Below, piece after piece: positions 1 to 46,411 of a stretch of 64,000 nucleotides of DNA. This DNA is from Corallococcus macrosporus (lineage in GTDB: Bacteria; Myxococcota; Myxococcia; Myxococcales; Myxococcaceae). Within the stretch, counting starts at the first letter, position 1. Each line of letters opens with the position of its first letter. Made by a program: the position numbers and the translations under genes. Location of the stretch: contig NZ_JAFIMU010000006.1 of the NCBI RefSeq assembly GCF_017302985.1, positions 434,001 through 498,000 of the forward strand. The letters run 5' to 3'. Below the pieces are notes generated by a model. It made no database searches. It was not told the DNA's origin and saw only the letters and a program-made list of their open reading frames with translations.

Positions 1-935
1 CAGAGGTGGTGTTCAATCTGGTAGTTCAGCCACAGGTGGGCGTAGTCGTTGAGGTCGCCTCCGGTGGCGTAGTTCGCGCTGCCCACCACCTGCTGCACCA
101 TGCGCTCGGCCTTGTTCGCGGGCGCGGAGTCGAAGCGGTACAGGTCCTCGCCGGTGTGGTTGGGCCCCACCACGAAGAACGTGTGCAGGTTGGTGACGAC
201 GTCCGCCAGCACGGAGTTGCAGAACACGCTGAACGCCGCCCACGGCCCCAGCACCAGGAACGCCGCCGGGTACAGCCCGAAGAAGACGGTCGCGTACGGC
301 AGGTAGCAGCGCGTGAACAGCTCCCACAGCTCCGCGCGCGTCAGCGCCCCACCCTCGCGCCGCCCCTTGCGGCGCAGCGACCCCAGCGTCTCCGGCGCGT
401 AGTAGCTCGCGCGCCACGTGACGGCCAGGAGCGCCAGCTGCACGTAGCGCAGGGGCAGCGGCCGGCGGTTGTCGCGCAGCGAGCCCTCCGCGTTGCGCTC
501 CAGCAGGTCCGGATCCGCGTCCTCGCCGGTGTGCGAGTGGTGCAGCACGTTGTGCTCGAAGACCCACGCCTCCGGCAGCATCCAGTCCAGCCAGTCCACG
601 AACCGGCGCGACCCCTTCGCGAAGCCCTTGCTCGTGCGCGACGCGGGCATGCCCGGCACGCGGTCATAGCCCCGGTGCCCCACGTGGTGCATGAGCAGCC
701 AGCGCGTGGAGCGGCCCAGGCCCAGCGCCACCGCGCTCAACGGATTGGGTGCGATCCACGCCGTGGCCACGCCCAGCACCGACGCCACCTTCCCCCAGCG
801 CTCCATCTTCCGCAGGTGCGCCGCGTCCGGCTCGCCCAGGTTCGCGTCCAGCCGGGCGCGCAGCTCCTTCAGCTCCCGGTAGAAGCCCTCCACGTCCACG
901 GAGGCCAGGTCGAAGTCAGGGGTGGCGCGGGACAT
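1..935 (-). CDS. Fatty acid desaturase, membrane di-iron type (3' end cut by window edge)
   Basis: The protein starts with ATG at 935; on the coding strand a GAGGAG ribosome site lies about 8 bases upstream. About 311 residues are visible and the C-terminus lies outside the window. Three histidine clusters of membrane fatty acid desaturases are present in order: HHVGH near residue 88, HNVLHHSH near residue 134, and a late NYQIEHHL just before the edge, with hydrophobic stretches between them. The family uses a di-iron centre bound by these histidines to insert double bonds in acyl chains in the membrane. It lies about 90 bases downstream of a MaoC-like gene on the same strand and may be cotranscribed. 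Substrate and regiospecificity cannot be read from sequence. Family call is firm. Confidence 0.9.
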   Translation of the reverse strand, partial: MSRATPDFDLASVDVEGFYRELKELRARLDANLGEPDAAHLRKMERWGKVASVLGVATAWIAPNPLSAVALGLGRSTRWLLMHHVGHRGYDRVPGMPASRTSKGFAKGSRRFVDWLDWMLPEAWVFEHNVLHHSHTGEDADPDLLERNAEGSLRDNRRPLPLRYVQLALLAVTWRASYYAPETLGSLRRKGRREGGALTRAELWELFTRCYLPYATVFFGLYPAAFLVLGPWAAFSVFCNSVLADVVTNLHTFFVVGPNHTGEDLYRFDSAPANKAERMVQQVVGSANYATGGDLNDYAHLWLNYQIEHHL

Positions 936-29508: not shown

Positions 29509-29525
29509 CCCCGGGGGCTTTCCGC

Positions 29526-29927
29526 TCAGGACAGCGTGGCGTAGCGCAGGTAGAGGGCGCCCAGGCACACGGCGCCGTAGAGGGGAATCTCCGCCGTCTC
29601 CGTCCAGGGCTGCTGCTTCATCACCGCGCCCCAGATGTGCACCGCCGTCATGATGCCGCCAATGAGGCCGATGAGCTCGAAGATGACCAGGTGGCTCTTG
29701 GGGTCCGGGATGAACTGCACCACCGCGATGATGACGGACAGCGCCAGGCCGCCCAGGCAGCGCGCGAAGTAGACCGTCAAATCATTGTTGCCCGCGGGCA
29801 GCTCCCAGCCGAACCACCGCGCCCAGCGCAGCGGCACGAAGAGCAGCGGCAGCGCGTAGAAGATCGCGAAGGTCGAGGTGGAGACCGCGAGGAACCAGCT
29901 GGCCAGCGGATAGTCGGGGTTGATCAT
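29526..29927 (-). CDS. Small four-helix membrane protein, unknown
   Basis: A 133-residue protein (MINPDYPLASW start at 29927) with four hydrophobic segments: about 8-30, 45-65, 75-98 and 110-130. The charged loop FVPLRWARWFGWELPAGNNDLTV lies between the first two. An in-frame ATG at 29993 would add 22 residues; neither start has a well-placed ribosome site, so the N-terminus is uncertain. No family is recognised. It lies between the LOG-family gene and the cyclase-ATPase gene on the same strand, 18 bases before the latter, which suggests cotranscription. Confidence 0.65.
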   Translation of the reverse strand: MINPDYPLASWFLAVSTSTFAIFYALPLLFVPLRWARWFGWELPAGNNDLTVYFARCLGGLALSVIIAVVQFIPDPKSHLVIFELIGLIGGIMTAVHIWGAVMKQQPWTETAEIPLYGAVCLGALYLRYATLS

Positions 29928-31705: not shown

Positions 31706-34700
31706 TCAGGGCACGTCGAGCGCGACGCCCTGTCCCGGCACGGCCATCACCCAGCGGACCACGTCGGGCTTGCCGCCGCAGGTGACGCGCACCTCGAACT
31801 CGCGTCCCGCGGGCATGGGGCTGGCGAGCGGCGTCTGGCCCTGGAGCACCTGCGAGCCCAGCGCCACGCGGCAGCCCTGGGCACCGGTGACGCTGAGCGT
31901 GCCCCGGGCATCCGCCTGGGGCGCGGCGTCCGCGAGCGTGCGCAGGTCGATGTGCTCCGACTTCGGCACCTTGCCGAAGCGGTGCAGCTTGCCCTCCACG
32001 GCCGTGGAGACGAGCCAGCCGGAGGGGTCCTCCGGCAGGGCGTTGCTGCCTTCCAGCAGCACGCCGGACACGTAGACGCGCTCGCCCTCCTGGGCGTTGC
32101 GCACCTCCACGCCGCCCTTGGGCAGCAGGAACACCAGCGCGAGCCCCGCGAGTACCAGGCCCACGCCGCCCACGACGAGCCCCTTGCGCTGCCCGGACGT
32201 CAGCCCCTTCCCCGACGTGTCGGCCGCGGGCACCGGAGCCGCGGAGGCCACGGCGTGGACGGGCGCTGGCGGCGCGGCCACGGGAGCCGCCGGAGGACGC
32301 GCGGGCGGGGCCACCTGCGGAGGCGGCGGAGCGGCGACGGGCGGCGGAGGCGCGGGATGGTTCCCCCCGTAGGCCGCGTGCGTGCCCGTCTGCGGCGACG
32401 AATGGGTGACCGGCTGCTGCGGCGGCGCGTATTGCGCGTGGGTGCCCCCGTGCTGCGGAGGGGCGGGCGGCACGGCGGGCGGCGGCGGGACCGAGGTCAG
32501 CGGCGCCACGGAGGGCACCGACACCGACGGACGCGCGGGGGCCTGCGGCGGAGGCCCCACGCGGGTGGGCACGTTGGCGGAGGCCGCCGGGCGCACCGCG
32601 GTGGGCGGCGGCAGCGGCGACGCGGGCGGAGCGGCGGCCGGGCGCGAAGGACGGGGCGCGGGCGCGGCGGCCACGGGCGGGGCTGGCGGATGCACCGCTC
32701 CCGGAGTGGCCACCGGGGGCGGCACGGGAGGACGCGTCGGATCCGAGGTCACGGAGACGACCTCGGTGCCGCGCTCGGCGGCCTCCGGCGGCGAGGCCAC
32801 CGGAGGCGGCTCCATGCGGGGCATGCTGCCGGAACCGCCGCGCACGGGCGGACGGGACAGGTCGGACGGGGCCCGCATGTCGCTGCCGGAGCCCGTGCCC
32901 GGGACGCGCGAGTGCGAGCCCGTGCCCGGCATCAGCGCCCGGGGGTTGGAGCCCGTCCCCGAGCCGGCGATGGACGACGGCGCGTACTCGGAGAGCCGGT
33001 CGCCCAGCGCCTCCTTGAAGAACTGCGCTACCGACGCGGGCGACGAGGACAGCCGATGGTGCGCGATGACGGCTTCAATCTCCTCGCGCATCGCCGCCGC
33101 GGAGGGCGTGCGGCGCGCGGGGTCCTTCACCAGCGCGCGCAGGATGAGGTCCGACACGTCCTGCGGGATGTGGGGCCGCAGCTGCGAGGGCACCGGCGCG
33201 GGCTCGCGCACGATGGCCGCGAGCGTGGCCGCGTCGTGGTCCCGGCGGAACGGCAGCTGGCCGGTGAGCAGCTCGAAGAGCACCACGCCCAGCGCGAACA
33301 CGTCGTTGCGCCAATCCAGCGGTCGTCCGCTGGCGGCCTCCGGGGAGAGGTACGAAATCTTCCCCTTGATGACGCCCGCCTGCGTCTGCTCCTCGCCCTG
33401 CACCTTGGCGATGCCGAAGTCCGACAGCTTGATGGCGCCGTCCAGCGACACCAGCACGTTGTGGGGGCTGACGTCGCGGTGCACCACCGGGTGCGCCGTG
33501 CCGGACGGGTCCACGTAGCTGTGCGCGTAGTGCAGGCCCGCGGCCACCTCCGCCACGATGCGCAGCGCGTGCTCCAGCGGCAGCGCCATGCCCTTGCGGC
33601 GCAGCTCCGTGAGCAGGCGCTTGAGGTCCGGGCCGCGCACGTACTCCATCAGGATGTACGCCACGCCGTCCGTCACGCCCACGTCGAAGGTCTGGACGAT
33701 GTTGGGGTGCGTGAGGCGCGCGTTGGCGCGGGCCTCCGCGAAGAGCATGTCGACGAACTCAGGATTCTCAGCGAACTGCGCGAGAATCTTCTTCATCACG
33801 ACGAACTTCTCGAAGCCCTTCACGCCCTGCTGCTTGGCGAGGAACACCTCCGCCATGCCGCCCTGCCCCAGCCGGCGGATGATCTGCAGCCGCGCGCCGC
33901 TGTTGTGCGTGTCCGTGGCGGACGTGCCCTTGGCGCCGGGGTCCTGGTTGGTGGAGCCGAAGAGGTACTGGCTGAGCGCGCGCTGCTCCAGCGCCTCGAT
34001 GTCCTCCAGCGGCTTGTCGGTGAGCGGCGTGCGCGCGAGCAGCCCCTGGAACTGCGCGAGCGCCGGAGCCCGGGCGTTGCCGCCGCAGACGGGGCACACG
34101 CGGTCCATGGTGCCCTTGGCGCGCAGGACCTCCAGGTATTCGGAGGTCTGGATGCGATGGTGGGTGACCTGGCCGCAGTTGCGGCAGTCGCACGGCAGCC
34201 ACAGCGTGGCCAGCTTCGCCGGCAGCGGCTTGGTGGACTTCGCCAGCACGCTGAGCAGCGGCGGCGGCACGCGGCAGAGCACCACCTGGGCGCCCTGCGA
34301 CGCCACCTCCAGCACCTGTTCAATCCGCGGCAGCGCCTCCGGCTCCACCGTGCTCACGTGGCAGCAGTCGAACGCGACGCGCCCCTCCAGGCCGGACGCC
34401 AGCCGGCGCACGTTGAGGTCGCCCTTGAGCGTGCTGGCCAGGGTGATGAAGGTGATGTCGTCCTGGACGATCTTCAGGTGCGAGGACAGCTCGGACGGCT
34501 CGTTCGGGAGGCCCGCGCGCAGGTAGCGCAGCACGGCGGGGTCCACGGCGGAGAACTGCTGGCGGCGCGCGAAGTCGAAGAACTCCGTGGGCTCGTCCGC
34601 GAACTCCAGCGGCTGGGCGCACACGGGGCAGTGGTGCGGCGGCGCACCGCCCGCCTCCACGACCTTGCTCTCCTCCACCAGGCGGACCAGCCGCAGCCGG

Positions 34701-35047
34701 TCCTCCTTGCAGAAGCGGCACGAGTACGGCGCCAGCAGCGAGAGCACGCGCGCGACGCCCGCGAAGCCCTCCACCATGTTGAGCTGATCCACCACCACCG
34801 GCGGTGCGTTGACGACGTACAGCCCCGAGACGCCCTGCGGCGGGTGGCCGGCGAACTCAATCCACCGGCGGACCCCGAAGGAGCTGATGCGCTCCACCAG
34901 ACCCAGGTCCACCACCACCAGGCCCTGGAGGCCCTTGGACGCTGGCGAGAGGGGGAAGGTTTCGTCGATCACCCCGGCCACGCGCACGTGGGTCAGACTG
35001 CCCACGCGCAGGGAGGTGATGCTGGCATTGGAAGTTTGGCTCTCCAC
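31706..35047 (-). CDS. Tandem STAS/zinc-ribbon Ser/Thr protein kinase
   Basis: A 1113-residue protein with a GTG start at 35047. Residues 8-105 are a STAS-like domain whose VERISSFGV loop aligns with the phospho-acceptor Ser loop of anti-anti-sigma factors. A zinc ribbon follows (C110, C113, C140, C143). A second STAS-like segment lies at about 195-280, and a second ribbon at C286/C288/C291 and C318/C321. A Hanks kinase follows (about 388-665: glycine loop GQGGMAEV, Lys419, HRD 523-525, Asn530, DFG 543-545), so it should be active. Then come about 270 Pro/Ala/Gly-rich residues, one membrane helix (about 955-975) and a 138-residue C-terminal domain, probably periplasmic. It lies 4 bases after the RsbW-like gene. 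Confidence 0.85.
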   Translation of the reverse strand: MESQTSNASITSLRVGSLTHVRVAGVIDETFPLSPASKGLQGLVVVDLGLVERISSFGVRRWIEFAGHPPQGVSGLYVVNAPPVVVDQLNMVEGFAGVARVLSLLAPYSCRFCKEDRLRLVRLVEESKVVEAGGAPPHHCPVCAQPLEFADEPTEFFDFARRQQFSAVDPAVLRYLRAGLPNEPSELSSHLKIVQDDITFITLASTLKGDLNVRRLASGLEGRVAFDCCHVSTVEPEALPRIEQVLEVASQGAQVVLCRVPPPLLSVLAKSTKPLPAKLATLWLPCDCRNCGQVTHHRIQTSEYLEVLRAKGTMDRVCPVCGGNARAPALAQFQGLLARTPLTDKPLEDIEALEQRALSQYLFGSTNQDPGAKGTSATDTHNSGARLQIIRRLGQGGMAEVFLAKQQGVKGFEKFVVMKKILAQFAENPEFVDMLFAEARANARLTHPNIVQTFDVGVTDGVAYILMEYVRGPDLKRLLTELRRKGMALPLEHALRIVAEVAAGLHYAHSYVDPSGTAHPVVHRDVSPHNVLVSLDGAIKLSDFGIAKVQGEEQTQAGVIKGKISYLSPEAASGRPLDWRNDVFALGVVLFELLTGQLPFRRDHDAATLAAIVREPAPVPSQLRPHIPQDVSDLILRALVKDPARRTPSAAAMREEIEAVIAHHRLSSSPASVAQFFKEALGDRLSEYAPSSIAGSGTGSNPRALMPGTGSHSRVPGTGSGSDMRAPSDLSRPPVRGGSGSMPRMEPPPVASPPEAAERGTEVVSVTSDPTRPPVPPPVATPGAVHPPAPPVAAAPAPRPSRPAAAPPASPLPPPTAVRPAASANVPTRVGPPPQAPARPSVSVPSVAPLTSVPPPPAVPPAPPQHGGTHAQYAPPQQPVTHSSPQTGTHAAYGGNHPAPPPPVAAPPPPQVAPPARPPAAPVAAPPAPVHAVASAAPVPAADTSGKGLTSGQRKGLVVGGVGLVLAGLALVFLLPKGGVEVRNAQEGERVYVSGVLLEGSNALPEDPSGWLVSTAVEGKLHRFGKVPKSEHIDLRTLADAAPQADARGTLSVTGAQGCRVALGSQVLQGQTPLASPMPAGREFEVRVTCGGKPDVVRWVMAVPGQGVALDVP

Positions 35048-35051
35048 CCGC

Positions 35052-35897
35052 CTACCCTCGTTCCAGACAGAACAGCAGCGACTTGGGCTGCGCGGCCCGG
35101 CGGCGCGCGTCCCCCAGGTCCACCGCGCAGGCGAACTGGGTCCGCTTCCCCGGAGTCACCCGCACCGCGACCGCGTCGCTGTGCTCCAGGATGCGCCGCA
35201 GGCCCAGGCCCGCGCCACCGCCCGAAGCATCCACCTGCGCCTTCTCACCCCACGCCTTCACCACCCGCACCAGCGGTGACACCGACAGGCGGCCGAAGCG
35301 ATCCGTCGCCTCCAGCCAGGCCCGGCCGTCCGCCACCGCCCAGGACAGCAGGCAGCGATCCTCCTCCGCCACCGACTGCACCTGCCCGCGCCGATGGGCG
35401 TACTTCGGCTCGCCGCCCGCGTCCACCGGCGCGTCGAGCAGTGCGTTCACTCCAATCTCATGGACGACATCCGCCACCCGGCTGGCCGCGGATCTGGAGG
35501 CGCCAGCCTGGAGGACGGCCTCCGCCGCGCGCTCCCCCGCCGCCGTCACCTCCGAGACACTGCCCAGCCACGCCACGGACGTGGCGGCCTCCCGGGGAAT
35601 CATGGGCTCGCCGCGAAGCAGCGCGCCGAGCAGCCGCGCCTCCCAGGCGGACGGCTGGCCGCCCTCACCGCGCGTGGCCATGAGCAGCGCCGGGGGACGC
35701 CGCTCCAGCAGCGCCGCGTGGGCGGGGGTGAACCGCCCGTCGAACAGCACCAGGTGCGGCGCCGCGTCGTCACCGCGCCCCAACAGGACGCCGTCCCTTG
35801 CCAGCACCCCGGAGGCCTTCTCCAGCGCCTCCGGCGTGAGCGTCGTGTCCGGCGTCAACTTCAGGGGAGCATCCTTCACGGCGGCGACGGTATCCAA
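35052..35897 (-). CDS. RsbW-like HATPase (anti-sigma-factor-type kinase)
   Basis: A 281-residue soluble protein, TTG start at 35897 with AGGT about 8 bases upstream. The C-terminal half is a GHKL ATPase of the HATPase_c_2 type: N box HEIGVNALL (Glu147, Asn151), G1 box with Asp199 (ATDRFG) and G2 box GGGAGLGL (226-233). There is no phospho-acceptor His domain, so it resembles anti-sigma kinases such as RsbW/SpoIIAB rather than sensor kinases. The N-terminal 110 residues look like a Rossmann-like regulatory domain. It is encoded between the TonB receptor (8-base gap) and the STAS-kinase (4-base gap); the STAS domains of the latter are its likely substrate (inference). Confidence 0.82.
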   Translation of the reverse strand: MDTVAAVKDAPLKLTPDTTLTPEALEKASGVLARDGVLLGRGDDAAPHLVLFDGRFTPAHAALLERRPPALLMATRGEGGQPSAWEARLLGALLRGEPMIPREAATSVAWLGSVSEVTAAGERAAEAVLQAGASRSAASRVADVVHEIGVNALLDAPVDAGGEPKYAHRRGQVQSVAEEDRCLLSWAVADGRAWLEATDRFGRLSVSPLVRVVKAWGEKAQVDASGGGAGLGLRRILEHSDAVAVRVTPGKRTQFACAVDLGDARRRAAQPKSLLFCLERG

Positions 35898-35905
35898 ACA
35901 GCGAC

Positions 35906-38509
35906 CTAATAATGGAGTCGAACTTCTGTGAAGACGCCCAGCGGCGGAGCGGGGAAGCCGTGGGACTCCTCGTACTTCGCGTTGAACAGGTTCGTGCCCA
36001 GCAGGGACACCGCCACGCGCTCGTGGACGTTGAAGCCCACGCGCGCGGTCGCGGTGATGTAGCTGGGCAGCTTCACGCGGGTGGTGGTGCCGGCGTTCTC
36101 GTCCACCACGAAGCCCGGATCATACCGGGCGCCCACGAACAGGCCGTAGAGCTCCACGAAGGCGAACTTGCCGATGTTGGTGCGGCCGCGCAGGTAGACG
36201 CGGTGGGTGGGCGCGTAGTCCAGCGGGTAGCCGGCCCCGCCTCCCACCGGCAGCGCCTGGGCGTCCAGGAACTGGTAGGCCACGTCGAAGGACGAGTTGA
36301 TGGACGGCACCTGCGCCGCGGCCTCCGCCTCGAAGCCCGCCACGCGCGCGTCGCCCAGGTTCTTGAACTGGGACGTGGAGCCGAAGAGGAGCTCCTGGTT
36401 GATGAAGTTGCGAGCGCGGTTGTAGAAGCCCGTGCCCGTCAGGCGCACCCGGCGGTCGAGCGGCCAGAAGTCCACCGCCGCCTCCACCGTGTCCAGCGTC
36501 TCCGCGCGCAGGGACGGGTTGCCCAAGAGCGTCGCGGCGTACATCTGCTGGTTGATGGCCAACTCCGCCAGCGTGGGCGCGCGGAAGGCGCGGCCGTAGT
36601 TGGTGCGCAGCGTGAGCAGCTCCGGGATGGCGTGGAACACGACGCTGGCGCGCGGGGACACCTGGTCCGTCTTCGCCTCCCAGACCTTGGAGGGGATCTG
36701 GTAGTTGTCGTAGCGGGCGCCCGCGCCCACCACCAGCCGCTCCGTGATGCGGTACTCGGCGTCCACGAAGCCGCCCAGGATGGTCTGCTTCGTGTCGTCC
36801 AGGGTCAGGCCGGGCAGCACGTTCTGGTTGTTCACCTGGTCGGCCTTCACGTCGCCGCCCACGGTGACGGACAGCTTGTCCAGGGAGAACAGCGCGCGCG
36901 CCTCACCGCCCAGGCGGCTGCGCTTGCCCAGCGTGTCCTCCAGCGCGCCGGTGACTTCATTCTCCAGCGTCACGTTGCGGCGCTTGAAGAACGTGTAGGC
37001 CTGGGCGAACACGCGCACGTTGTCCGTCACCTGCTGATCCAGCTGCAGGGCGGCGTTGAGGTTCTGGACGTGCTCGTTGTCCTGCGCGGTGTAGTGGCAG
37101 CGGCCGCAGTTGCCCACGGTGGAGATGTTCTGGCCACCGGGCCGGCCGATGTTGCCGTCGGTGAAGTCGGCGTCCAGCGCGAGGGGCCCCACGCGGACCT
37201 TGCCGTTCACCTGGTGCACCAGCGAGTCCTCGTTGGTGTCCGTCTGGCCCAGTTGCTGGTTGTTGAAGAGCTGCGGGCCGTCCGAGCCGAAGCCGTAGTA
37301 GCCGAGCAGCGCCTCCACCGGACCGCCGCGGCCGGCGACGTTGGTCTGCAGGCGCCACGTCTTGTCCTGGCCCGCGAGGATGCGCGCGTCCGCGCCCACG
37401 TTCTGGCCCTTGGCGATGAGGTCCGCGGGCTGGCGTTCAATGATGTTGATGACGCCGCTGAAGGCGTTGGAGCCGTACAGCGACGAACCCGGGCCGCGGA
37501 TGACCTCCACCTGCTTGAGGTTGGTCATCGGCGTCGTCTCATCCGCGTAGAACTGGCCCGTCCAGGGGTCCGTCAGCGGACGGCCGTCCTTGAGGAGCAG
37601 CAGGCGGTTGGACAGGTAGTTGGAGCCCAGGCCGCGCGCGCTCACCGCCGCCTTGCGCATGGAGCCCCGGCGGCACTCCATGCCGGGGAAGTACTGGATG
37701 GCCTCGCAGAGCGAGAACTGGCCGGTGCCCTCCAGCTCCTCCGCGGGAATCCACGACACCGTGAGGGGCACGTCGGAGATGCGCTGGCTGCGCTTGGACG
37801 CCGTGGTGACGACGGCCTCGCTCAGCGCCAGGTTGATGTTCTTCTCCAGGTCGTCGCCGCCGCCCAGGTCCGGGCCGTCCAGGCCGGAGAGGCTGGAGGG
37901 CGGAGGCAGCGCGCGGTCCGTGGTGGGCTCCGTGAAGGGCGCGCGGTCCGGGACGTTGTCGGCCGGCCGGGGCTGCGACGCCGGCAGCATCGCGCCAGCG
38001 CCCAGCGCCGGGGCGGGCTGCGGGTTGGACGGGATGTCGGACGTCAGCGGCCCGTCATAGGGCGACGTCGAGGCGGGCGTGCCGGGCGAGGCCACGGGCA
38101 TCGGATCCGCGACGGACGGACCGGCGCCGGGGCCGGCCATGGGCGCGGGCTGCGCGGGCGGCGGCTCGGTGGCGAGCACTGGGTCCTGCGCTGCGGGCTC
38201 CTCCCCGCGAATGGGCTCCGGCTCCACCGGCGGAGGCGGCGTCTTCGCGCCCCGGCGCGTCTTCGCCGTGCGCGGAGGCTTCGTGCCCGGGGTGGCGGCC
38301 TTGGTGCCGGGCGTGGCGGCCGCGCGCTTGCGGGCCGTCTTCGTGCGCGTCTTGGAAGCAGGCTCCTGGGCCTCCTGGGCCCGGGCCGTCTCCACCGCGA
38401 ACAGCGACAGCGCGCAGACCACCAGCGTAAGGCATGCGCGCGCGCTCAGCCGACCGGCAAACCCCTTCACCGCGTTGGTGCGCGGCCCACCGTACTCAGT
38501 CGAGTCCAT
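35906..38509 (-). CDS. TonB-dependent outer-membrane receptor with a CXXCH motif
   Basis: An 867-residue protein; ATG 38509 begins a signal peptide ending near ARAQ. Then comes an unusual 150-residue basic and proline-rich stretch with short ATPGTK repeats. The plug domain follows (about 205-330; SDVPLTVSWIP ... NLKQVEVIRGPGSSLYGSNAFSGVINI) and a 22-strand-type barrel ends in a C-terminal aromatic (RLHY). These receptors import scarce ligands (siderophores, B12, metals, glycans) using TonB energy. C468-H472 in the barrel region read CGRCH, a haem c-type motif that is rare in such receptors. It heads the operon with the RsbW-like and STAS-kinase genes. Confidence 0.88.
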   Translation of the reverse strand: MDSTEYGGPRTNAVKGFAGRLSARACLTLVVCALSLFAVETARAQEAQEPASKTRTKTARKRAAATPGTKAATPGTKPPRTAKTRRGAKTPPPPVEPEPIRGEEPAAQDPVLATEPPPAQPAPMAGPGAGPSVADPMPVASPGTPASTSPYDGPLTSDIPSNPQPAPALGAGAMLPASQPRPADNVPDRAPFTEPTTDRALPPPSSLSGLDGPDLGGGDDLEKNINLALSEAVVTTASKRSQRISDVPLTVSWIPAEELEGTGQFSLCEAIQYFPGMECRRGSMRKAAVSARGLGSNYLSNRLLLLKDGRPLTDPWTGQFYADETTPMTNLKQVEVIRGPGSSLYGSNAFSGVINIIERQPADLIAKGQNVGADARILAGQDKTWRLQTNVAGRGGPVEALLGYYGFGSDGPQLFNNQQLGQTDTNEDSLVHQVNGKVRVGPLALDADFTDGNIGRPGGQNISTVGNCGRCHYTAQDNEHVQNLNAALQLDQQVTDNVRVFAQAYTFFKRRNVTLENEVTGALEDTLGKRSRLGGEARALFSLDKLSVTVGGDVKADQVNNQNVLPGLTLDDTKQTILGGFVDAEYRITERLVVGAGARYDNYQIPSKVWEAKTDQVSPRASVVFHAIPELLTLRTNYGRAFRAPTLAELAINQQMYAATLLGNPSLRAETLDTVEAAVDFWPLDRRVRLTGTGFYNRARNFINQELLFGSTSQFKNLGDARVAGFEAEAAAQVPSINSSFDVAYQFLDAQALPVGGGAGYPLDYAPTHRVYLRGRTNIGKFAFVELYGLFVGARYDPGFVVDENAGTTTRVKLPSYITATARVGFNVHERVAVSLLGTNLFNAKYEESHGFPAPPLGVFTEVRLHY

Positions 38510-38744
38510 CGTTCTCAATTCCACGAGGGGGAAGCAGGGACGTCCGCGGTTCTTGCGCCAGGATCCAGAGCCGGTGCGACTGGCAATCGCCTTCAGGGGC
38601 GACCATCCACCCCTGAACGGTGGCGTTCCGCTCGACTTCTCAAACTACCGCAATAACTCACCTAAGGCCAAGTCGTGGCTGTCGATCCGGGCAAATCCAG
38701 CGGACGGAGACGGGGGCACCGTCCGCGGATCAGCCACGGCGCAA

Positions 38745-39671
38745 TCAGTCATCCGGCTGTTCCGCGGACACGGCCAGGTCGTCCGCGAACGGGGGCAGCG
38801 CGGGACCCAGCGACTCCGCCTGCACGAGCACGGACGACTCCACCCGCAGGTCGGGTGCGTCCGCGAGGACGGGCTGGCGGCGCGGGGGGCCCTGGGTGAC
38901 GAGCTTGCGGAAGTCCTCGAACTCGCGGCCCTGGATGCGGGCGAAGGCGTCGAACGGGGCGACCACACCCACGGAGGACAGGGCCTGGGACAACGCGTCC
39001 GCCCCGCCCTTCAGGTCCACCAGCACGGCGCCCGGCACCCGGGCGCTCTTGAAGAGCACGCGCACGTCCCTGGGCACGTGCGTCACCGGCACGAGCGCGG
39101 CCTCCGCGCCCTTGGCCTCCAGCATCTTCACCGCCGACTCCACGTTGGGCACCGGCACCAGCTTGAAGTGCTTCTGGGCATCCAGGTCGCCGCCCAGCAC
39201 GACGTGGGAGACGAACTTCGGATCCGCGGGGCCCGCGCCCTTCACCAGCGCCATGCGCTTGCCGGCGAGGTCCTTCACGGTGCCCTTCTGGGTGGAGATG
39301 ATGGCCCAGCGCTGCTGCGTCTCACCGGAGCGCGGCGCGTACGCGACGGCTTGCGCCTTGGCGCCCAGTTGCACCGCGGCCCAGCCGTCCACCACGGCGA
39401 AGTCGATCTGCCCCTCCCCCACCGCCTTGGAGAAGTCCTCGTAGCGGCCGAAGCTCTTGGCGCCCACGGGGCGGCCCAGGCTGGCCTCCAGCTTCTGGGC
39501 CAGGGCCTCCGCGTACTGGAAGCGCTCCTGGCCGTCCGACAGCGTGGTGGCGAGGAACACGCCCAGCGTCGCCTTCTTCGGCGCGGCGGACGCGGGACGG
39601 GCAACGGCGACGGCGAACAGCACGGCGGCGAGCAGGAGGCTCCCCCGCGCGACAAGGGATGGCGTCTTCAC
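38745..39671 (-). CDS. PhnD-type periplasmic substrate-binding protein (orphan)
   Basis: A 308-residue secreted protein (signal peptide ending near ASA) with a two-lobed binding fold of the PhnD/phosphonate-phosphite family: LGVFLATTLSDG at the start, FSKAVGEGQIDFAVVDGWAAVQL around residues 80-105 and KDLAGKRMALVKGAGPADPKFVSHVVL near 135-160. No ABC permease or ATPase is nearby, so it is more likely a ligand sensor than an importer component (inference). The GTG start at 39671 overlaps the stop codon of the TPR gene by four bases (GTGA), so translation is coupled. The ligand cannot be read from sequence. Confidence 0.8.
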   Translation of the reverse strand: MKTPSLVARGSLLLAAVLFAVAVARPASAAPKKATLGVFLATTLSDGQERFQYAEALAQKLEASLGRPVGAKSFGRYEDFSKAVGEGQIDFAVVDGWAAVQLGAKAQAVAYAPRSGETQQRWAIISTQKGTVKDLAGKRMALVKGAGPADPKFVSHVVLGGDLDAQKHFKLVPVPNVESAVKMLEAKGAEAALVPVTHVPRDVRVLFKSARVPGAVLVDLKGGADALSQALSSVGVVAPFDAFARIQGREFEDFRKLVTQGPPRRQPVLADAPDLRVESSVLVQAESLGPALPPFADDLAVSAEQPDD

Positions 39672-42193
39672 GGCGTCTCCTCCGCGACCCCGGTGGCCGG
39701 CGTGGCGCCCTGCGCGTCACCCAGTCCATAGAGGCCCTGCAGGCGGTCCTTCCATTCACGCACCTGGGCGGCGCGGGGGCCCGCGCCGGAGACCAGGTAG
39801 CGGCGCCAGGCCTCCACGGCCTCGGCGGGTTCATGCCGGCGCTCCTGCGCGTCGATGCCCAGGTTGAGCGAGGCGACAGGCACGGCGGTCTCCAGGCGCT
39901 TCCACGTCGCGAGCGCGGAGGCCGCGTCGCCCTGGCGCCAGTCCACGCACGCCAGGTTGTGCTGCACCAGCACGTCGTCGGGCGTCGCGGCGAGCGCGGC
40001 CTTCAGCGCCTTCTCCGACGCCTTCATGTTGCCGGAGGCGTACGCGAGCGCGGCCTCGCGGCGCAGCAGCGCGCCGGTGAGGTGGCCCATCCACTTCGGC
40101 TGTCCGGGCATGGGCTTCTTCTGCGCGGTGGCGAGCAGCTTGCGCGCGGGCGCGACCTTGCCCTGGCGGTAGAGCACCCAGGCATCCGCGAGCGTGCGCG
40201 TGTTGGGCCACGCCCACTCCGGCGCCGGGGTGAGCGAGCGCTTGATGCCGGCGGTGGCCTCCGCGAACCGCCCCTCTTCCGCGCGCGTGAGCGCCCGGGC
40301 GAAGGTGGCCAGCTTCGCCAGGTCCGCGCGCTTGCCGGTGCCCAGGCGGTCCACCGCGTCCAGGTCCCGGTTCGCCGCGGCCGCGTCTCCGGCCTCCAGC
40401 TTCGCCAGGGCGCGGCGCACCAGCACGCGGGGCAGGTTCGCCTCCGCCACCTTCGAGGCCGTCTTGGAGGGGCCCGCGTCCGTCAGCCGCTGCACGGCGG
40501 CGTCCACCTGGCCCAGCTCCACCTCCGCGAGCGCGGCGCCCGCGGACGCCTCCGCGCGCTGATCCGGCTCCTGCGTGGCCTCACCGGACTGGGTGAAGGC
40601 GGCGAGCGCTCCTTGCGCATCGCCACTGCCCAGCCGCGAGTAGCCCAGCAGCAGGTGCTCACGCCAGGTCGCGCCCGGCAGCGTCACTGCGCCCTCCATC
40701 ACCTTGCGGGCCTCCGCGTACTGGTGGCTGTCCAGGAGCGCCGCGCCCAGGCGGCGGGCCATGGGCACGGAGCGGTCCAGGTCGTACGCGCGGCGCAGGT
40801 CGCGCGCGGCGTCGTCCAGGCGCTGCGTGCCGGCGCGGTCACGTGCGCGGTGCGCCAGCGCCCGGGCCAGCCACTGCTTCGCGCCGGGGTGGCCGGGCTC
40901 GACCTGGAGCGCGTTGCCGTAGTCCTCGATGGCCTGGTCCCACTGGCCGGTGGCGAAGTGATCCGCGCCCAGCAGCATGTGGCCCAGCGCCTGGCGCGGA
41001 GCCATCTCCACCACGCGCCGGTGCACCTCCACCGCGCGCTGGTAGCGGCCGGCGCGGCGGTTGACGGAGCCCAGCGTCGCCCACAGCTCCAGGCTGCCGC
41101 CGCCCGTCTTCACCGCGGACTCGAGGAACTGGATGGCCTCCTCGTGGCGAGCCTGCGCCTGGAGCGCCTTGCCCACGGCGATCTGCCCCAGGAGCAGGCC
41201 CGGCTGCAGCTCCAGCACCTTGCGGAACTCGGCCTCCGCCTGCGCGGGCTGCTTCTGCGCGAGCCGCACGTCACCCAGCAACAGGTGCGCGGCGGGCGTC
41301 GAGCCCAGCTTCATGAGGGCGGTGGCCTGGAGGTCCGCGCGCGGCACGTCGCCCGCGGCGAGGTACTGGCGCGCGAGACGCTCCTTCGGCTCGGCCACCT
41401 GCGGGTACTTCGTCACCAGCCGCTCCAGGAGCGCGCGGGCCTCCGGCACGCGGCCCTCCAGCTCCAGCACGGCGGCGAGGCCAATCTGCGCGGTCGCGGA
41501 CTCGGCCCGGCCGGCCTGCGCCTTCTCGAACGAGGCGCGCGCGGCGCCAGCGTCGCGGCGGATGAGGTGCGCCTTGCCCAGCAGTTCGTGGATCTGGAAG
41601 TCGTTGCCCGCGAGCTTCTCCGGGCGCAGCGCCAGGTAGCGCTGCAGCCGCGTCACGGCCCGGTTCCCGTCCTGGACGTACAGGTAGTAGCTGGCCAGGT
41701 AGTAGTGGACGATGAGGTGGTCCGGCTGATCCGCGGCGGCCACCTGCTCCAGCACCGGTACGGCCTCCGGGAAGCGGCGCAGCTTGAAGTACGCCGTGCC
41801 CAGCGGGTACGCGAGCGACAGCTCCTGCGGGTTCTGCGCGAACACCGGCTGGAGGCGGGCCACCGTGCGCTGGAAGTCCTGGAGCGCGTTGGCGGCGCTG
41901 CCCAGTCCCGCGGCGGCGTACACGGACTGCGGCTCCTGCGCGAGCGACTGCTCGAAGAGCTGGAGCGCCTTCTTGAACTTCTCCTCCGCCTCCTTCTTGT
42001 CGCCCTTGGAGAGGGCGGCGTTGGCGGACACGAGGGCCTGTTCGCCCTGCACCGTCATGCGCTGCGCCTCGGTGGCGGGCGGCGGGCGGAACTGGGCGAG
42101 CGCGGCCGGAGGGCCGGCCAGGGTGGCCAGCAGGGCGAGCGCGGTGGAGACGCGGCGCGGGGAACGGATGAATGGGCGCATGCGGTTCGTCAC
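39668..42193 (-). CDS. Large periplasmic TPR protein
   Basis: An 841-residue protein with a signal peptide ending at ALA (about residue 33). The rest is almost entirely TPR repeats (for example AYPLGTAYFKLRRFPEAVPVLEQ and ALGHMLLGADHFATGQWDQAIEDYGNAL), giving a superhelical scaffold of some 18-20 repeats. It should mediate protein contacts in the periplasm. Its GTG start overlaps the SpoIIE-phosphatase stop by four bases (GTGA) and its own stop overlaps the PhnD-type start the same way, so the three proteins are made in a fixed ratio and probably act together. An ATG 12 bases into the frame is an alternative start. Confidence 0.82.
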   Translation of the reverse strand: MTNRMRPFIRSPRRVSTALALLATLAGPPAALAQFRPPPATEAQRMTVQGEQALVSANAALSKGDKKEAEEKFKKALQLFEQSLAQEPQSVYAAAGLGSAANALQDFQRTVARLQPVFAQNPQELSLAYPLGTAYFKLRRFPEAVPVLEQVAAADQPDHLIVHYYLASYYLYVQDGNRAVTRLQRYLALRPEKLAGNDFQIHELLGKAHLIRRDAGAARASFEKAQAGRAESATAQIGLAAVLELEGRVPEARALLERLVTKYPQVAEPKERLARQYLAAGDVPRADLQATALMKLGSTPAAHLLLGDVRLAQKQPAQAEAEFRKVLELQPGLLLGQIAVGKALQAQARHEEAIQFLESAVKTGGGSLELWATLGSVNRRAGRYQRAVEVHRRVVEMAPRQALGHMLLGADHFATGQWDQAIEDYGNALQVEPGHPGAKQWLARALAHRARDRAGTQRLDDAARDLRRAYDLDRSVPMARRLGAALLDSHQYAEARKVMEGAVTLPGATWREHLLLGYSRLGSGDAQGALAAFTQSGEATQEPDQRAEASAGAALAEVELGQVDAAVQRLTDAGPSKTASKVAEANLPRVLVRRALAKLEAGDAAAANRDLDAVDRLGTGKRADLAKLATFARALTRAEEGRFAEATAGIKRSLTPAPEWAWPNTRTLADAWVLYRQGKVAPARKLLATAQKKPMPGQPKWMGHLTGALLRREAALAYASGNMKASEKALKAALAATPDDVLVQHNLACVDWRQGDAASALATWKRLETAVPVASLNLGIDAQERRHEPAEAVEAWRRYLVSGAGPRAAQVREWKDRLQGLYGLGDAQGATPATGVAEETP

Positions 42194-44001
42194 GGCGAGG
42201 GGGCGGGGCTGAATTCGGCGACGATGACGGTGATGTCGTCGCGCTGGGGCTGACCGGCGCTGTACGCGCGCACGTCCGCGAGGAGCGCGTCACGAAGGGC
42301 GTCGGCGGGGAGGTGCGCGTGGGCCTGGAGCGCGGCGGCCAGGCGCTGCGTGCCGTAGAGCCGGTTGGCTCCGTCGCGCGCCTCCGTCAGGCCGTCCGTG
42401 TACCAGACGATGATGTCGCCAGGGCTCAGCTGCGCCTGGCGCGACGTGAACTGCGACGCGACGTTCGCGCCCAGGAGCGGTCCGCGCGCCGGCAGCGACG
42501 CCATCTGCCGCGTGTTCCGGTTGTAGATGGCCGCCGCCGGGTGGGCGCCCGCCGCGTAGTCGATGCTGCCGCTGTACACGTCGATGACCGCGAGCGCGCT
42601 GGACATCTGGTGCTCGCCACGGCCCACGTTGGCCAGCGTCACGTTGAGCGCGGTGATGAGCATCTGCGCGTGCACCTGCGACGGCTCGCGCAGCGTCATC
42701 GCGGAGGCGAAGCCGCTGGTGGCGCTGGTGGCGACCAGCGACGTGGACAGGCCGTGGCCCGTCACGTCTCCAATGCCGATGACGACGCGCCGGTCGTCCA
42801 GCGCGGCGCGGAACCACCAGTCGCCGCCGCACGCGTCCGCGGGCACCACCAACCCGGCCAGCCGCAGCGGCCCCACCGTCACGGCCTCGCGGCCCGGGAG
42901 CAGCGTCTCCTGCACCGTGCGCGCGAGCGACACCTCGCGCTCCAGCTGCGCCTTGGCGCGCACGTCCTCCAAGAGGACCTTGATGCGCTCCGCCATGTGG
43001 TTGAACACCACGCCCAGCGTCGTCACCTCGCGGCCCGCGCCCGGCGCCGTGCCCGCGCGAGCGCCCAGGTCACCGGCGGCCAGCTGCATCACGCGGTGGG
43101 TGAGGACACCCAGCGGCTTGGTGATGCGTCGGCTCTGGAAGGCGGCCAGCACGCCGGCCAGCACCACGAAGCCCACGCCCAGTCCCACGATGCGCAGCGT
43201 GTTCGCGCGCACCGCGGCGCGGTTGGTCTCCTCCAGCTCGTGGAGCTGCTTCTGCAGGTCCTCCAGCGAGTAGCTGATGACGACCACGCCCTTGCCGCCC
43301 TGCGAGCCGTAGTCGAGCGGCTCCTGGAACTCGAAGACGGGCTGGCCCTGGAAGAAGGCGCTGGCCCAGCGGCGCTCCGCGGTGCGGCCTCCGGAGGACT
43401 CGCCCAGCTTCGCGGCCGGGTCGCTGTCCGCGACGAGCTGCCCGTCCGCGTCGAACATCTGCACGCGCAGGATGTTGCGGTTGTCCGCGATGATGGAGCG
43501 CGCGACCTCCGTGAGGAACGCGTAGTTGTTGTCGCGCAGGCTGGTGGCCGAAGTGAGCGCCAGCGTGTGGCTCACCGTCTGGCCCAGCTCGCGAGCCTGG
43601 GACTGGAGCCGCTGCGTGAAGCGATCCGACGTCGCGGTGAGCTGCGCCTCCGTCGTCTTCGCCGACAGCGCGGCCAAGAGGCCCACGATGATGATGACCA
43701 GCGCGCCCGTGGTGAGCAGCAGCAGCTGATCCAACCGCAGCCCGCGGATGGCGGCCACGTTGGGCAGCTCTCCCGCCTCCATGGGCGCGATGACCGTGCT
43801 CGTGGGCTCCGCGGCCGGCAGCCCCAGCGCTCCCGTCAGGCGGGTGGCCGTGTTCTCCCCTCGCAGGGCGGTGAGGTCCCGGGAGTGGGTGCCCGTGTAC
43901 TCCGGAGGAGGGGGCGGGGTGCCGGGCCCTGCGTCGTGGGAATCTCCGGACGCGTCAGGGGAGTCAGGCACGGGGTCGAGGCGCGTGTTCGTACGGGACA
44001 A
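42190..44001 (-). CDS. HAMP-linked SpoIIE/RsbU-type PP2C phosphatase
   Basis: A 603-residue membrane sensor phosphatase. A proline-rich cytoplasmic N-terminus (1-88) precedes helix TM1 (89-112), a periplasmic sensor region of about 150 residues with helical and PAS/Cache-like parts, TM2 (266-288), a HAMP domain (289-342) and a PP2C SpoIIE domain (370-600). The catalytic metal ligands are present: Asp394 (GGDWW), Asp412 (GDVTGHG), Asp536 (TDGLTEA) and Asp588/589 (RDDIT). Such enzymes dephosphorylate STAS proteins in partner switching. The TTG start at 44001 has only a weak ribosome site, so the first residues are uncertain. It heads the TPR-PhnD operon. Confidence 0.87.
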   Translation of the reverse strand: MSRTNTRLDPVPDSPDASGDSHDAGPGTPPPPPEYTGTHSRDLTALRGENTATRLTGALGLPAAEPTSTVIAPMEAGELPNVAAIRGLRLDQLLLLTTGALVIIIVGLLAALSAKTTEAQLTATSDRFTQRLQSQARELGQTVSHTLALTSATSLRDNNYAFLTEVARSIIADNRNILRVQMFDADGQLVADSDPAAKLGESSGGRTAERRWASAFFQGQPVFEFQEPLDYGSQGGKGVVVISYSLEDLQKQLHELEETNRAAVRANTLRIVGLGVGFVVLAGVLAAFQSRRITKPLGVLTHRVMQLAAGDLGARAGTAPGAGREVTTLGVVFNHMAERIKVLLEDVRAKAQLEREVSLARTVQETLLPGREAVTVGPLRLAGLVVPADACGGDWWFRAALDDRRVVIGIGDVTGHGLSTSLVATSATSGFASAMTLREPSQVHAQMLITALNVTLANVGRGEHQMSSALAVIDVYSGSIDYAAGAHPAAAIYNRNTRQMASLPARGPLLGANVASQFTSRQAQLSPGDIIVWYTDGLTEARDGANRLYGTQRLAAALQAHAHLPADALRDALLADVRAYSAGQPQRDDITVIVAEFSPAPSP

Positions 44002-44345: not shown

Positions 44346-45353
44346 GTGTCCCGGCCCCGGTTGATCAAAGAAAACTCCGCGCCGCTTTCGCTCGCCCGAG
44401 AGCAGCTGATCCGCATCCACGACCTGATGGTGAAGGCGCGAGTCCTGGAGGAGCGCCTCATCCAGATGTACAAGCAGGGCCACGGCTACTTCTGGATTGG
44501 CGGCCCCGGTGAGGAGGCGTTCAACGTCCCCCTGGGCATGCTCATGAAGGTGGGCGAGGGCCCGGCCTACGACTACCTCCACGCGCACTACCGCCAGTCC
44601 GCGACGCTGCTGGCCATGGGCGAGGAGCCCATCGGGGCGCTGCGGCAGATGAAGAACACGGCCACGGACCCCTACTCCGGCGGCCGCAACTTCGCGGGCC
44701 ACTTCAGCCGGCGCTCGAAGAACATCGCCCCGGTCACCTCTCCCATCGAGGTGCAGTACGCCATCGCGCCGGGCACGGCCATGGCCCAGAAGCGCCACGG
44801 CGGCGAGGGCATCACCATCGTCACCGGCGGCGACGCGGGCACGGCCGAGGGCGATTTCGCCAGCGGCCTCATCTGGAGCAGCCGCCCGGCGAACCCGCTG
44901 CCCATCCTGATCATCGTCACGAACAACAAGTGGGGCATCAGCACCACGTCGGACGGTCAGCACGGCGAGACGAACATCGCGGACCGCGCGCGCGCCTTCA
45001 ACATCCCGGCGAAGACCATCAACGGCAATGATCCGGTGGAGTCCTACCAGGAACTGCAGGCCGCGATGGACTACGTGCGCAAGGAGCGCAAGCCGTACTT
45101 CATCGAGGCGCGCGTGTCGCGCCTGTACGGGCACTCGTCCGCGTCCGGCGCCAACTTCGTGAACGAGGAGCAGGACTGCCTGCGCCTGTTCGAGGCGCGG
45201 CTGGAGCAGGAAGGCGTCCTCGACCGCAAGCAGATGGAAGAGGTCCGCAACCGCTACACGGAGGAGCTGGCCGCCGCGGCGCGCACCGTGCGTGACGAGC
45301 CGCAGCCCTCTGGCGACTCCATCTGGGAACACATCTACGCGGAGAAGAAATAA
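44346..45353 (+). CDS. 2-oxoacid dehydrogenase E1 component, alpha subunit
   Basis: A 335-residue thiamine-diphosphate enzyme subunit. The TPP motif runs from GGDAGTAEGDFASGL (161-175) to VTNNKWGIS (191-199). The substrate-side His region is at YDYLHAHYRQ (75-84), and the family's regulated loop RLYGHSSASG is at 259-268. E1 alpha/beta pairs decarboxylate pyruvate, branched-chain 2-oxoacids or acetoin and pass the acyl group to an E2. The alpha/beta split points to the pyruvate or branched-chain type; myxobacteria use branched-chain oxoacids to make iso-fatty acids. The GTG start has GAGG about 10 bases upstream. The beta gene begins 2 bases after the stop. No E2 or E3 is in the window. Confidence 0.87.
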   Translation: MSRPRLIKENSAPLSLAREQLIRIHDLMVKARVLEERLIQMYKQGHGYFWIGGPGEEAFNVPLGMLMKVGEGPAYDYLHAHYRQSATLLAMGEEPIGALRQMKNTATDPYSGGRNFAGHFSRRSKNIAPVTSPIEVQYAIAPGTAMAQKRHGGEGITIVTGGDAGTAEGDFASGLIWSSRPANPLPILIIVTNNKWGISTTSDGQHGETNIADRARAFNIPAKTINGNDPVESYQELQAAMDYVRKERKPYFIEARVSRLYGHSSASGANFVNEEQDCLRLFEARLEQEGVLDRKQMEEVRNRYTEELAAAARTVRDEPQPSGDSIWEHIYAEKK

Positions 45354-45355
45354 CC

Positions 45356-46411
45356 ATGGCGAACATGGCACAGGCCATCCGCATGGCCCTGCACTACGCG
45401 GAAGAGAACCTGGGCGTCACCGACATCTTCGGCGAGGACGTGGGCGCCCCGCTGGGCGGCGTCTTCACCTGCACCCAGGGCCTGAAGACGGCGTGGAACA
45501 GCCCCCTGGACGAGCGCGGCATCATCGGCACGGCCATGGGCCTGGCGATGGCGGGCAACCGCCCCGTCGCGGAGATCCAGTTCTGCGACTACATCTACAA
45601 CACCATCGACCTGCTCAAGCTCGCGGGCAACACGCACTGGGCGACGAACGGTGACTGGGCCATGCCCATGGTGGTGCGCACGCCCGTGGGCAGCGGCATC
45701 CGCGGGTCGCTGTACCACTCGCATTCCTTCGACGCGACGATGACGCACATCCCCGGCTGGAAGGTGGTCATCCCCTCCACGCCGCTGGACGCGTACGGCC
45801 TGCTCATCTCCGCGTGCCAGGACCCCAACCCCGTCATGTTCCTGGAGCCCAAGGCGCTGCTGCGCGTGAAGGGCGAGGAGCGCATCCCCGGGGAGCCCGA
45901 GGACGACCGCGCGCTGTCGAAGATGATCGACGCGCCGCTGGGTGACCGCTCGCAGTGGAAGCCCCAGTGGCCCGCGCTGGAGGCGTTCGCCATCCCCATT
46001 GGCAAGGGCAAGCGGGTGCGCGAGGGCACCCAGGCCACCGTCGTCAGCTACGGCCGCACGATGCCCCTGTGCATCAAGGCCGCGGCGCAGCTGGCGGAGG
46101 AAGGCCTGAGCGTGGAGGTCATCGACATGCGCTCGCTCTGGCCGTACGACTGGGACCTCATCAAGGCCTCCATCCAGAAGACGGGCCGCGTGCTCTTCGT
46201 CAACGAGGACACCGAAGTGACGAACTTCGGCGAGCACCTGGTCCGGCGCACCGTGGACGAGCTGTTCTACTCGCTGCTCGCGCCGCCCCGCCTGGTCGCC
46301 GGCAAGTTCATCCCGGGCATCGGCCTGGCGGACGCGCTGGAGATGGCGTCGGTGCCGCAGCAGAACGACATCACCACCGCCCTGCGCAGCCTCTGCGGCG
46401 AGCAGCCTTAA
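45356..46411 (+). CDS. 2-oxoacid dehydrogenase E1 component, beta subunit
   Basis: A 351-residue partner of the E1 alpha protein. Typical sequence: FGEDVGAPLGGVFTCTQGL (22-40, contains the Glu that activates TPP), FCDYIYNTIDLLKLAGNTHW, the VVRTPVGSGIRGSLYHSHS segment and a C-terminal transketolase-like domain with VEVIDMRSLWPYDWDLI and LFVNEDTEV. It follows the alpha gene with a 2-base gap. Two GC hairpins (46423-46480) end the transcript. The beta subunit supplies part of the TPP site in an alpha2beta2 heterotetramer in the cytoplasm. Confidence 0.9.
   Translation: MANMAQAIRMALHYAEENLGVTDIFGEDVGAPLGGVFTCTQGLKTAWNSPLDERGIIGTAMGLAMAGNRPVAEIQFCDYIYNTIDLLKLAGNTHWATNGDWAMPMVVRTPVGSGIRGSLYHSHSFDATMTHIPGWKVVIPSTPLDAYGLLISACQDPNPVMFLEPKALLRVKGEERIPGEPEDDRALSKMIDAPLGDRSQWKPQWPALEAFAIPIGKGKRVREGTQATVVSYGRTMPLCIKAAAQLAEEGLSVEVIDMRSLWPYDWDLIKASIQKTGRVLFVNEDTEVTNFGEHLVRRTVDELFYSLLAPPRLVAGKFIPGIGLADALEMASVPQQNDITTALRSLCGEQP

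Follow-up and report, generated by a model that had tools for sequence, protein, structure and literature searches.

The closest described relatives of the locus reported here are partner-switching modules, which join a PP2C phosphatase, an RsbW/SpoIIAB-type HATPase and a STAS protein with a conserved phosphorylatable residue. In SiaABCD of Pseudomonas aeruginosa these are SiaA (PP2C), SiaB (HATPase kinase) and SiaC (STAS-like), with the diguanylate cyclase SiaD (PMC7647112), and in the Rsb systems Ser59 of RsbS is the target phosphorylated by RsbT (PMC3944199). For BstC and for TPAT (TPR-associated TRAP), TPR-like partners of periplasmic binding proteins have been described; BstB is sterol-binding and BstABC has been proposed to move sterols (PMC10942540). 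Here we describe a set of six genes on the minus strand of a 64,000-nucleotide stretch (the window, in whose numbering all positions are given) of contig NZ_JAFIMU010000006.1, positions 434,001 to 498,000, from Corallococcus macrosporus, whose genome comprises 9.8 Mb in 17 contigs. A first-pass annotation had picked out three of the six, for a PhnD-like binding protein, a TPR protein and a SpoIIE-type phosphatase, as a translationally coupled ligand sensor ending at the phosphatase. This trio proved to be half of a six-part set. We consider it fairly probable that the trio and the three genes that follow it form one trans-envelope partner-switching system with a kinase output; the partner-switch part is likely and the PhnD/TPR/TonB input probable. 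All three components of a partner-switching module occur here, the HATPase by its predicted fold, and the best reading is a new combination built on an established logic (SiaABC, Rsb).

Like SiaABCD, the locus has a sensor PP2C, a predicted SiaB-type HATPase, an anti-sigma-antagonist-like switch and a non-sigma enzyme as putative output (PMC7647112). Unlike SiaABCD, it has a Ser/Thr kinase fused to STAS, an RsbS-type serine and the additional TonB receptor, PhnD-like and TPR proteins; no diguanylate cyclase is found among the conserved six, and the phosphatase scores far under the SiaA cut-off (best NCBIfam match NF038263, 87.4 bits against 700). With RsbRST and RsbU-RsbV-RsbW it shares a STAS serine at the position of RsbS Ser59, a predicted RsbW fold and a PP2C (PMC3944199), and it differs from them in that the conserved six include none of RsbR, RsbT and sigma-B as separate genes, that STAS is followed by CxxC motifs, that a membrane kinase is the putative output, and that there are outer-membrane and periplasmic parts. 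By comparison with the stressosome, X281, the predicted HATPase, could play the part of RsbT, the RsbT and RsbW types not being told apart here. LvrC/LvrB of Leptospira is similar in its HATPase part, the response regulator LvrC (9qih) aligning with X281 residues 103..262 at Z 9.2, and different in its other partners, the receiver-like part of X281 being short, degenerate and judged by eye. As in BstABC and TPAT, a PhnD-family periplasmic protein goes with a TPR-like partner (PMC10942540); unlike in these, no BstA-like transporter is among the conserved genes and the pair is tied to a phosphatase and a switch.

Fusions of STAS (COG1366) with eukaryotic-like kinases were noted in Sorangium cellulosum by a phosphatome paper of 2010, which said that Myxococcus xanthus is without a similar number of STAS proteins and counted, without naming them, three cases in M. 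xanthus of a kinase and a phosphatase paired within five genes (PMC2887360). Because of that count, the kinase-phosphatase pairing may already have been seen; the available sections of the paper describe no set of TonB receptor, PhnD, TPR and HATPase. Among open-licence PMC articles, none was found joining PhnD, TPR and SpoIIE, none joining the STAS domain, SpoIIE, partner-switching and a Ser/Thr protein kinase, and none bringing together at least four of the following: SpoIIE, a partner switch, a periplasmic binding protein, a TonB-dependent receptor and an anti-sigma factor antagonist. The STAS review PMC8256260 does not contain the terms kinase domain, zinc, fused, Myxococc or TonB.

Gene content, order and conservation

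The phosphatase gene (42190..44001, minus strand, 603 aa, TTG start) is followed on the same strand by the genes for the TPR-repeat protein (39668..42193, 841 aa, GTG start) and the PhnD-like periplasmic binding protein (38745..39671, 308 aa, GTG start). Pfam matched SpoIIE at E 1.1e-38 together with HAMP in the first, TPR families down to E 5e-33 in the second and PF12974 at E 2.5e-12 in the third, and third-position GC was 0.95 in each of the three open reading frames (ORFs). The 4-base GTGA stop-start overlaps claimed at both junctions were read directly on the minus strand, at 42190..42193 (SpoIIE/TPR) and 39668..39671 (TPR/PhnD). After PhnD comes a gap of 220 bases and then three more minus-strand genes spaced by 8 and 4 bases, encoding a TonB-dependent outer-membrane receptor (35906..38524, 872 aa; Pfam E 9.2e-44, Plug 1.6e-18), an unannotated protein of 281 aa without Pfam match, called X281 (35052..35897), and a STAS-CxxC-STAS-CxxC-Ser/Thr kinase protein (31706..35047, 1113 aa). 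This downstream half, 31706-38524, is omitted by the coordinates of the earlier trio.

The PhnD-like protein was searched against 145 genomes of the order and matched in 66, strongly in 61 (E < 1e-50) and weakly in 5. Regions were read from 40 of the 66 genomes, namely 35 of the 61 strong and all 5 weak ones. All six genes lay on one strand and in the same order in 31 of the 35 strong loci; three exceptions (L052, L053, L062) were cut by contig ends, and L051, in the draft genome G090, was the only real one. The TonB receptor gene came directly after PhnD in 33 of the 35 loci, and the other three genes followed the trio in 31 of 32 trio-bearing loci, the 32nd (L062) stopping at a contig end. 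The closest named loci were those of Corallococcus, with other Myxococcaceae more distant; a named M. xanthus strain (L108) had the six genes in the same order beside the gene for an E1 alpha subunit (E1a). Strong X281 matches (E < 1e-60) were present in 61 genomes, as many as for PhnD, and 60 genomes were common to both; of the two others, G049 had a partial X281 match only and G084 had X281 without PhnD. The trio is conserved in relatives, which rules out the non-conservation that would have refuted the first-pass annotation.

The two overlaps behaved differently. At 33 of 34 relative loci TPR and PhnD shared precisely 4 bases, and at the remaining one 1 base, whereas SpoIIE and TPR shared 4 bases at 10 of 32, the others having gaps of 3-24 bases (starts were placed by script at whichever start codon lay closest to the position expected from homology). 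This indicates that TPR-PhnD coupling is constrained and that the SpoIIE-TPR overlap is much less so.

Absences were found to be joint. In three sister genomes (G072, G073 and G074), the kinase protein adjoins E1a with ~410 bases between, and no match was obtained for PhnD (E up to 1e-5), X281 (1e-4), SpoIIE (1e-60), the TonB receptor piece (1e-60) or TPR (E up to 1e-40; 69 of 141-148 candidates scored). Since G075, of the same genus, holds all six genes (L048), loss is the simplest reading. Two further genomes, G095 and G111, contained E1a and gave no match to any of the six genes at the same thresholds. These patterns indicate that X281 and the TonB receptor are present or absent together with the trio, and that the kinase can persist by itself.

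Outside the family, the PhnD profile (E up to 1e-10) found one genome, G160, at E 1.7e-15. The order there (L139) was TPR - PhnD - HATPase - STAS - SpoIIE - TonB receptor, with 4-base overlaps at TPR/PhnD and PhnD/HATPase, and the same order was present in G159 (L140), a genome of another species in the family of G160, at 35-66% identity and with TPR cut by a contig end. At L139, Pfam supported the TPR, PhnD, Cache-HAMP-SpoIIE and TonB receptor proteins; the HATPase had no match and the STAS protein no STAS match, and the identity of both was taken from their motifs, from alignment with relatives and from intermediate matches. No kinase is attached to the STAS protein in L139 and L140, and the two arrangements do not necessarily have orthologous TonB receptors. 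That six parts of these kinds recur in a different order is the strongest sign of joint function. The trio as a complete unit was rejected by the downstream conservation and by this differently ordered operon. Divergent from the operon in G160 lies a gene for a PAS histidine kinase (L139:4895-6322, minus strand).

X281 and the STAS-kinase protein

Profiles of X281 and of the STAS region searched against solved structures gave chance-level hits only, and we therefore used fold prediction. The AF2 model of X281 had a pLDDT of 83.7 and a pTM of 0.85. Foldseek matched it best to SpoIIAB (1l0o_A, E 2.3e-6), then to SiaB (6kko_A, 1.7e-4) and RsbW (3.9e-3). SpoIIAB, RsbW, SiaB and UsfX were among the matches of Foldseek and VIA. 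In VIA, the nine best rows had Z 10.1-11.8, led by 1th8_A (Z 11.8, root-mean-square deviation 2.3, 129 aligned); over residues ~100-262, RsbW (6m36, 6m37) gave Z 10.8 and SiaB (6kko) 10.6, three further anti-sigma or LvrC rows gave ~9 and histidine-kinase-like proteins ~6. X281 is thus predicted to have the SpoIIAB/RsbW/SiaB anti-sigma kinase fold. Its HATPase domain (35106..35591, residues 103-264) carries an N-box (E147/N151), a G1 box (D199-x-x-G202) and the G2 box GGGAGLG. Among distant hits, the N-box E and N were present in 20 of 20 and the G2 pattern GAG[LV]G in 19 of 20, the exception (L099) carrying an in-frame stop; the G1 box of X281 relatives is mostly DxFG. The N and G2 boxes were also conserved in alignments of 24 of the 32 X281 rows plus the window protein (A1) and of nine chosen sequences (A6). 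The first 100 residues may be a degenerate receiver-like domain, judging by eye and by matches of the whole chain to LvrC in Foldseek. The locus points to an unannotated HATPase family.

The kinase protein has a Pkinase domain at residues 388-653 (Pfam E 4.1e-42), and hydropathy gave a single transmembrane segment at 957-975 with a C-terminal part beyond. Its N-terminus holds STAS domain 1 (STAS1; 34724..35047, residues 1-108) and STAS-like domain 2 (34193..34492, residues 186-285), each followed by CxxC...CxxC. Every one of the 22 aligned members (alignment A2, 21 of 32 kinase rows plus the window; E up to 1) matched Pfam STAS_2, and 20 of them matched STAS, at best 3.6e-8 and 4.3e-8; the window protein itself matched STAS_2 with 22.5 bits, short of the curated cut-off (29.2). 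The model of this region had a pLDDT of 76, and its top Foldseek hits were STAS proteins (best E 1.1e-3). In VIA, STAS folds aligned over residues ~7-101 and 186-282 with Z 7.4-7.6 (1vc1_A, Z 7.6 over 186..282), which on the VIA scale is middling (under 8), and 1thn_B gave Z 9.0 over residues 7..174.

Ser56 of STAS1 (34880..34882), in the motif ISSFGVR, aligns with RsbS Ser59 and is the predicted phosphorylation site. The motif was present in 22 of 22 rows of A2, but the three sister genomes that keep the kinase protein without the other genes carry ISSFGVS, probably by one event. An RsbS-type serine was found in 22 of 22 distant STAS hits, where the preceding residue varies (S in 5 of 22), and in an alignment of 11 chosen sequences (A5) the Ser, a Gly, an Arg, a Trp and four Cys were invariant (11/11). 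At the aligned site, STAS-like domain 2 has Pro or another residue and, in the window protein, no Ser/Thr. These results point to a STAS-CxxC unit with a fixed serine. Given the predicted HATPase fold of X281 and the STAS serine in the kinase protein, a phosphatase, an antagonist kinase and an antagonist all appear to be present, with a kinase in the place of the sigma factor. The phosphatase, taken earlier as the endpoint, is then likely followed by X281 and the STAS-kinase protein as next steps.

Nineteen loci around distant X281 matches were surveyed by stop-to-stop spans and tblastn with the window proteins, a procedure in which misses are likely. A same-strand STAS ORF lay within less than 1 kb at 10 of them, a STAS-kinase fusion occurred at 7, a PP2C within 1.3 kb at 6, and at least one of the three at 13. 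From these loci and from G090, the switch core is spread more widely, with the envelope parts as a separable input. Several STAS-CxxC ORFs, kinases and a HATPase were also seen close together at L089, L090, L091 and L092, and Myxococcota seem to have more switches of this kind than the window reveals.

X281 might instead take part in classical sigma control, sequestering a sigma factor encoded elsewhere that STAS1 would free, the fused kinase being a separate module. The fold of X281 is that of anti-sigma factors, and the structure hit best by Foldseek is SpoIIAB with SigF (1l0o). We regard this as unlikely, since the conserved genes include no sigma gene and STAS-kinase fusions lie less than 1 kb from X281 relatives in 7 of the 19 distant loci, an association that argues for the kinase as output.

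Envelope parts and competing explanations

The phosphatase has, by hydropathy, transmembrane segments at 93-111 and 269-287, enclosing an extracytoplasmic Cache-like region with weak Pfam matches, followed by HAMP at 290-340 (42982..43134, Pfam 4.1e-9) and PP2C at 402-597. It holds GGDW, GDVTGHG, TDG and RDD, which we take to be metal-site motifs. The TPR protein is probably periplasmic, to judge by eye from its signal peptide, and its most conserved 34-residue window is 375-408 (the partial locus L053 was left out of this count). The PhnD-like protein has a hydrophobic N-terminus and, going by its family, would bind a ligand. Its C-terminal tail EQPDD (38748..38762) is matched by [DE][QK]PD[DE] in 35 of 35 loci; the tail is absent from the PhnD-like ORFs of four weakly related unlinked loci and from L139. 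As a guess, the tail could hold the TPR partner. Docking in a TPR carboxylate clamp was not adopted, the tail being missing in L139 and the canonical clamp pattern not being seen at the TPR helix-A positions (by eye). The five weak PhnD relatives (L054-L058) were unlinked: tblastn with the window TPR, SpoIIE and other proteins found no partner beside them, and in L054 no clear PhnD frame was found.

We propose the following mechanism. The TonB-dependent receptor would bring a ligand across the outer membrane, or report it there, and the PhnD-like protein, tied to the periplasmic TPR protein, would sense it in the periplasm. The receptor/PhnD/TPR complex would then set the Cache-HAMP-PP2C phosphatase. 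X281 would phosphorylate STAS1 of the kinase protein at Ser56, or bind and hold it, the phosphatase would remove the phosphate, and the state of STAS1 would determine whether the membrane Ser/Thr kinase joined to it can act. The output would be a protein kinase, not a sigma factor or a diguanylate cyclase. The basis of this scheme is gene content, order, conservation, joint absence, predicted folds, the conserved serine and the ATPase motifs; a ligand, the physical contacts, the directions of phosphorylation and the kinase targets are inferred. If the scheme is true, a eukaryotic-like kinase can be the output of partner switching, and the input can come from a receptor in the outer membrane.

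An improbable alternative is that the receptor, the PhnD-like protein and the TPR protein serve uptake or lipid traffic, moving a substrate while the switch genes control the pathway or ride along. The best solved match of the PhnD profile is 7t1m, the sterol-binding BstB (E 3.8e-6), followed by the phosphite-binding PtxB (5o2j, E 1.7e-4), and the pairing with a TPR protein recalls BstC and TPAT. The BstB match is weak, however, at 29.5 bits, and at 18.8 bits the protein falls far below the NCBIfam BstB cut-off of 350; the conserved genes include no inner-membrane transporter, and the co-conserved phosphatase is of a membrane sensor type. Phosphonate uptake was rejected: the protein scored 23.5 bits against the PhnD cut-off of 261.1 (TIGR03431), also failed the general phosphonate-binder cut-off, and no match to PhnE (TIGR01097) over the cut-off was found genome-wide, six weak ones all lying on other contigs. 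An ABC permease or ABC-transporter ATPase was absent, as had been claimed, from the 14 window ORFs (~25-50 kb) scanned with Pfam, several of which may not be genes, and no ABC permease was among the conserved neighbours in relatives (E1a, E1b, GNAT and the other three genes), the non-conserved neighbours not being scanned. The ligand-sensor idea of the first-pass annotation is partly supported by this, by the conserved trio and by the recurrence of TPR, PhnD and phosphatase in the second operon, while its ligand and its coupling through the TPR protein remain presumptive. The phosphatase need not adjoin TPR, since in G090 TPR-PhnD lies on a different contig from SpoIIE-X281-STAS/kinase.

A simple kinase-phosphatase pair, with the PP2C opposing the Ser/Thr kinase on shared targets and STAS as a mere docking domain, would account for both enzymes being encoded in one set; we hold it very unlikely, because the STAS serine is conserved, the HATPase is co-conserved with its N and G2 boxes, and in L139 and L140 the STAS protein without kinase still keeps a HATPase and a PP2C. 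That the trio acts by itself (PhnD sensing, TPR relaying, the phosphatase as output, the downstream genes unrelated) would fit the two real overlaps and the 220-base gap, yet is hardly credible when the other three genes follow at every trio locus that does not run into a contig end, the six kinds of part recur in another order, and X281 and the TonB receptor are missing together with the trio in G072-G074. These explanations overlap, and the probabilities we give them need not sum to one.

Several points weigh against a trans-envelope partner switch with kinase output. In three genomes the STAS-kinase is present and the other five genes gave no match, so that the kinase can persist independently of the switch, and in G090 TPR-PhnD (L051) is unlinked from SpoIIE-X281-STAS/kinase (L082), on separate contigs. 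Nearly all carriers lie in one family, and the conservation is therefore partly shared descent. Across relative loci the TonB receptor gene begins only after a gap of 37-353 bases, and the set may therefore be transcribed as two units; a promoter and terminator scan of 38400-38900 found none, a weak test in this GC-rich organism. The DxFG G1 box of X281 is unusual, and besides the missing Pfam match of the window protein, 2 of 25 members reach HATPase_c, at best with E 0.13. The L139 counterpart matches X281 weakly in BLASTP (E 0.001 over 42 aa) and is linked to it via intermediate matches common to both queries. The kinase N-terminus model is moderate, with no Foldseek hit under 1e-3. STAS1 has Phe at the position of the SpoIIAA phospho-serine (Ser58) and its switch serine in the RsbS position, so SpoIIAA rules may not carry over. 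Finally, the steps of phosphorylation and binding are predictions from sequences and models.

The esgAB-like neighbours and other observations

Divergent from the phosphatase gene lie E1 alpha and beta genes (44346..46411, plus strand; Pfam) that resemble esgAB and that we treat as neighbours, not as part of the set. At 30 of 32 loci E1a lay next to SpoIIE in divergent orientation; at the other 2 it was out of view. In M. xanthus, esgAB is MXAN_4564/4565 (PMC4320627), MXAN_4562 is described as the sole SpoIIE-like phosphatase, with sce8427 and adeh0917 named as its orthologues (PMC2887360), and MXAN_4559 is a TonB receptor found in outer-membrane vesicles (PMC4158809). The assignments of MXAN_4562 and MXAN_4559 fit the six-gene order and, by this order, the M. 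xanthus set includes its only reported SpoIIE phosphatase (PMC2887360). X281 would, by the same order, be MXAN_4558. The locus gives this phosphatase likely partners, namely an antagonist kinase, a protein acting as the switch and a kinase as output. The esgAB genes are implicated in making the E-signal, the sensing of which was called unknown in 2014 (PMC4048283). The conserved neighbourhood alone suggests a link of the gene set to the E-signal. It would be a long shot that the locus represents a new class of signalling across the envelope, in which the membrane kinase is driven by a PP2C switch under the control of the TonB receptor and of a PhnD/TPR pair that binds lipid, with a product of the esgAB branched-chain lipid pathway as ligand, and that it is the missing E-signal sensor of M. 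xanthus.

Other features were noted around the operon. Nearby (25207-29568, minus strand) lies a gene for a protein of 1453 aa that matches nucleotide cyclase, AAA_16 and, weakly, TPR; such a protein is also found downstream of the kinase in L103, L110 and L112. The protein encoded at 47549-48439 (plus strand) is rich in Cys, Asp and Gly, starts like a lipoprotein and has no Pfam match; it was matched beside the E1/GNAT genes in several relatives. In G090, an E1a match (G090:C359:3519-4514) carries one in-frame TGA. A complete Myxococcus-like six-gene locus beside E1a was also found in a record titled Comamonas sp. KCTC 72670 (L111, BNCN01000007.1), which is probably mislabelled or contaminated.

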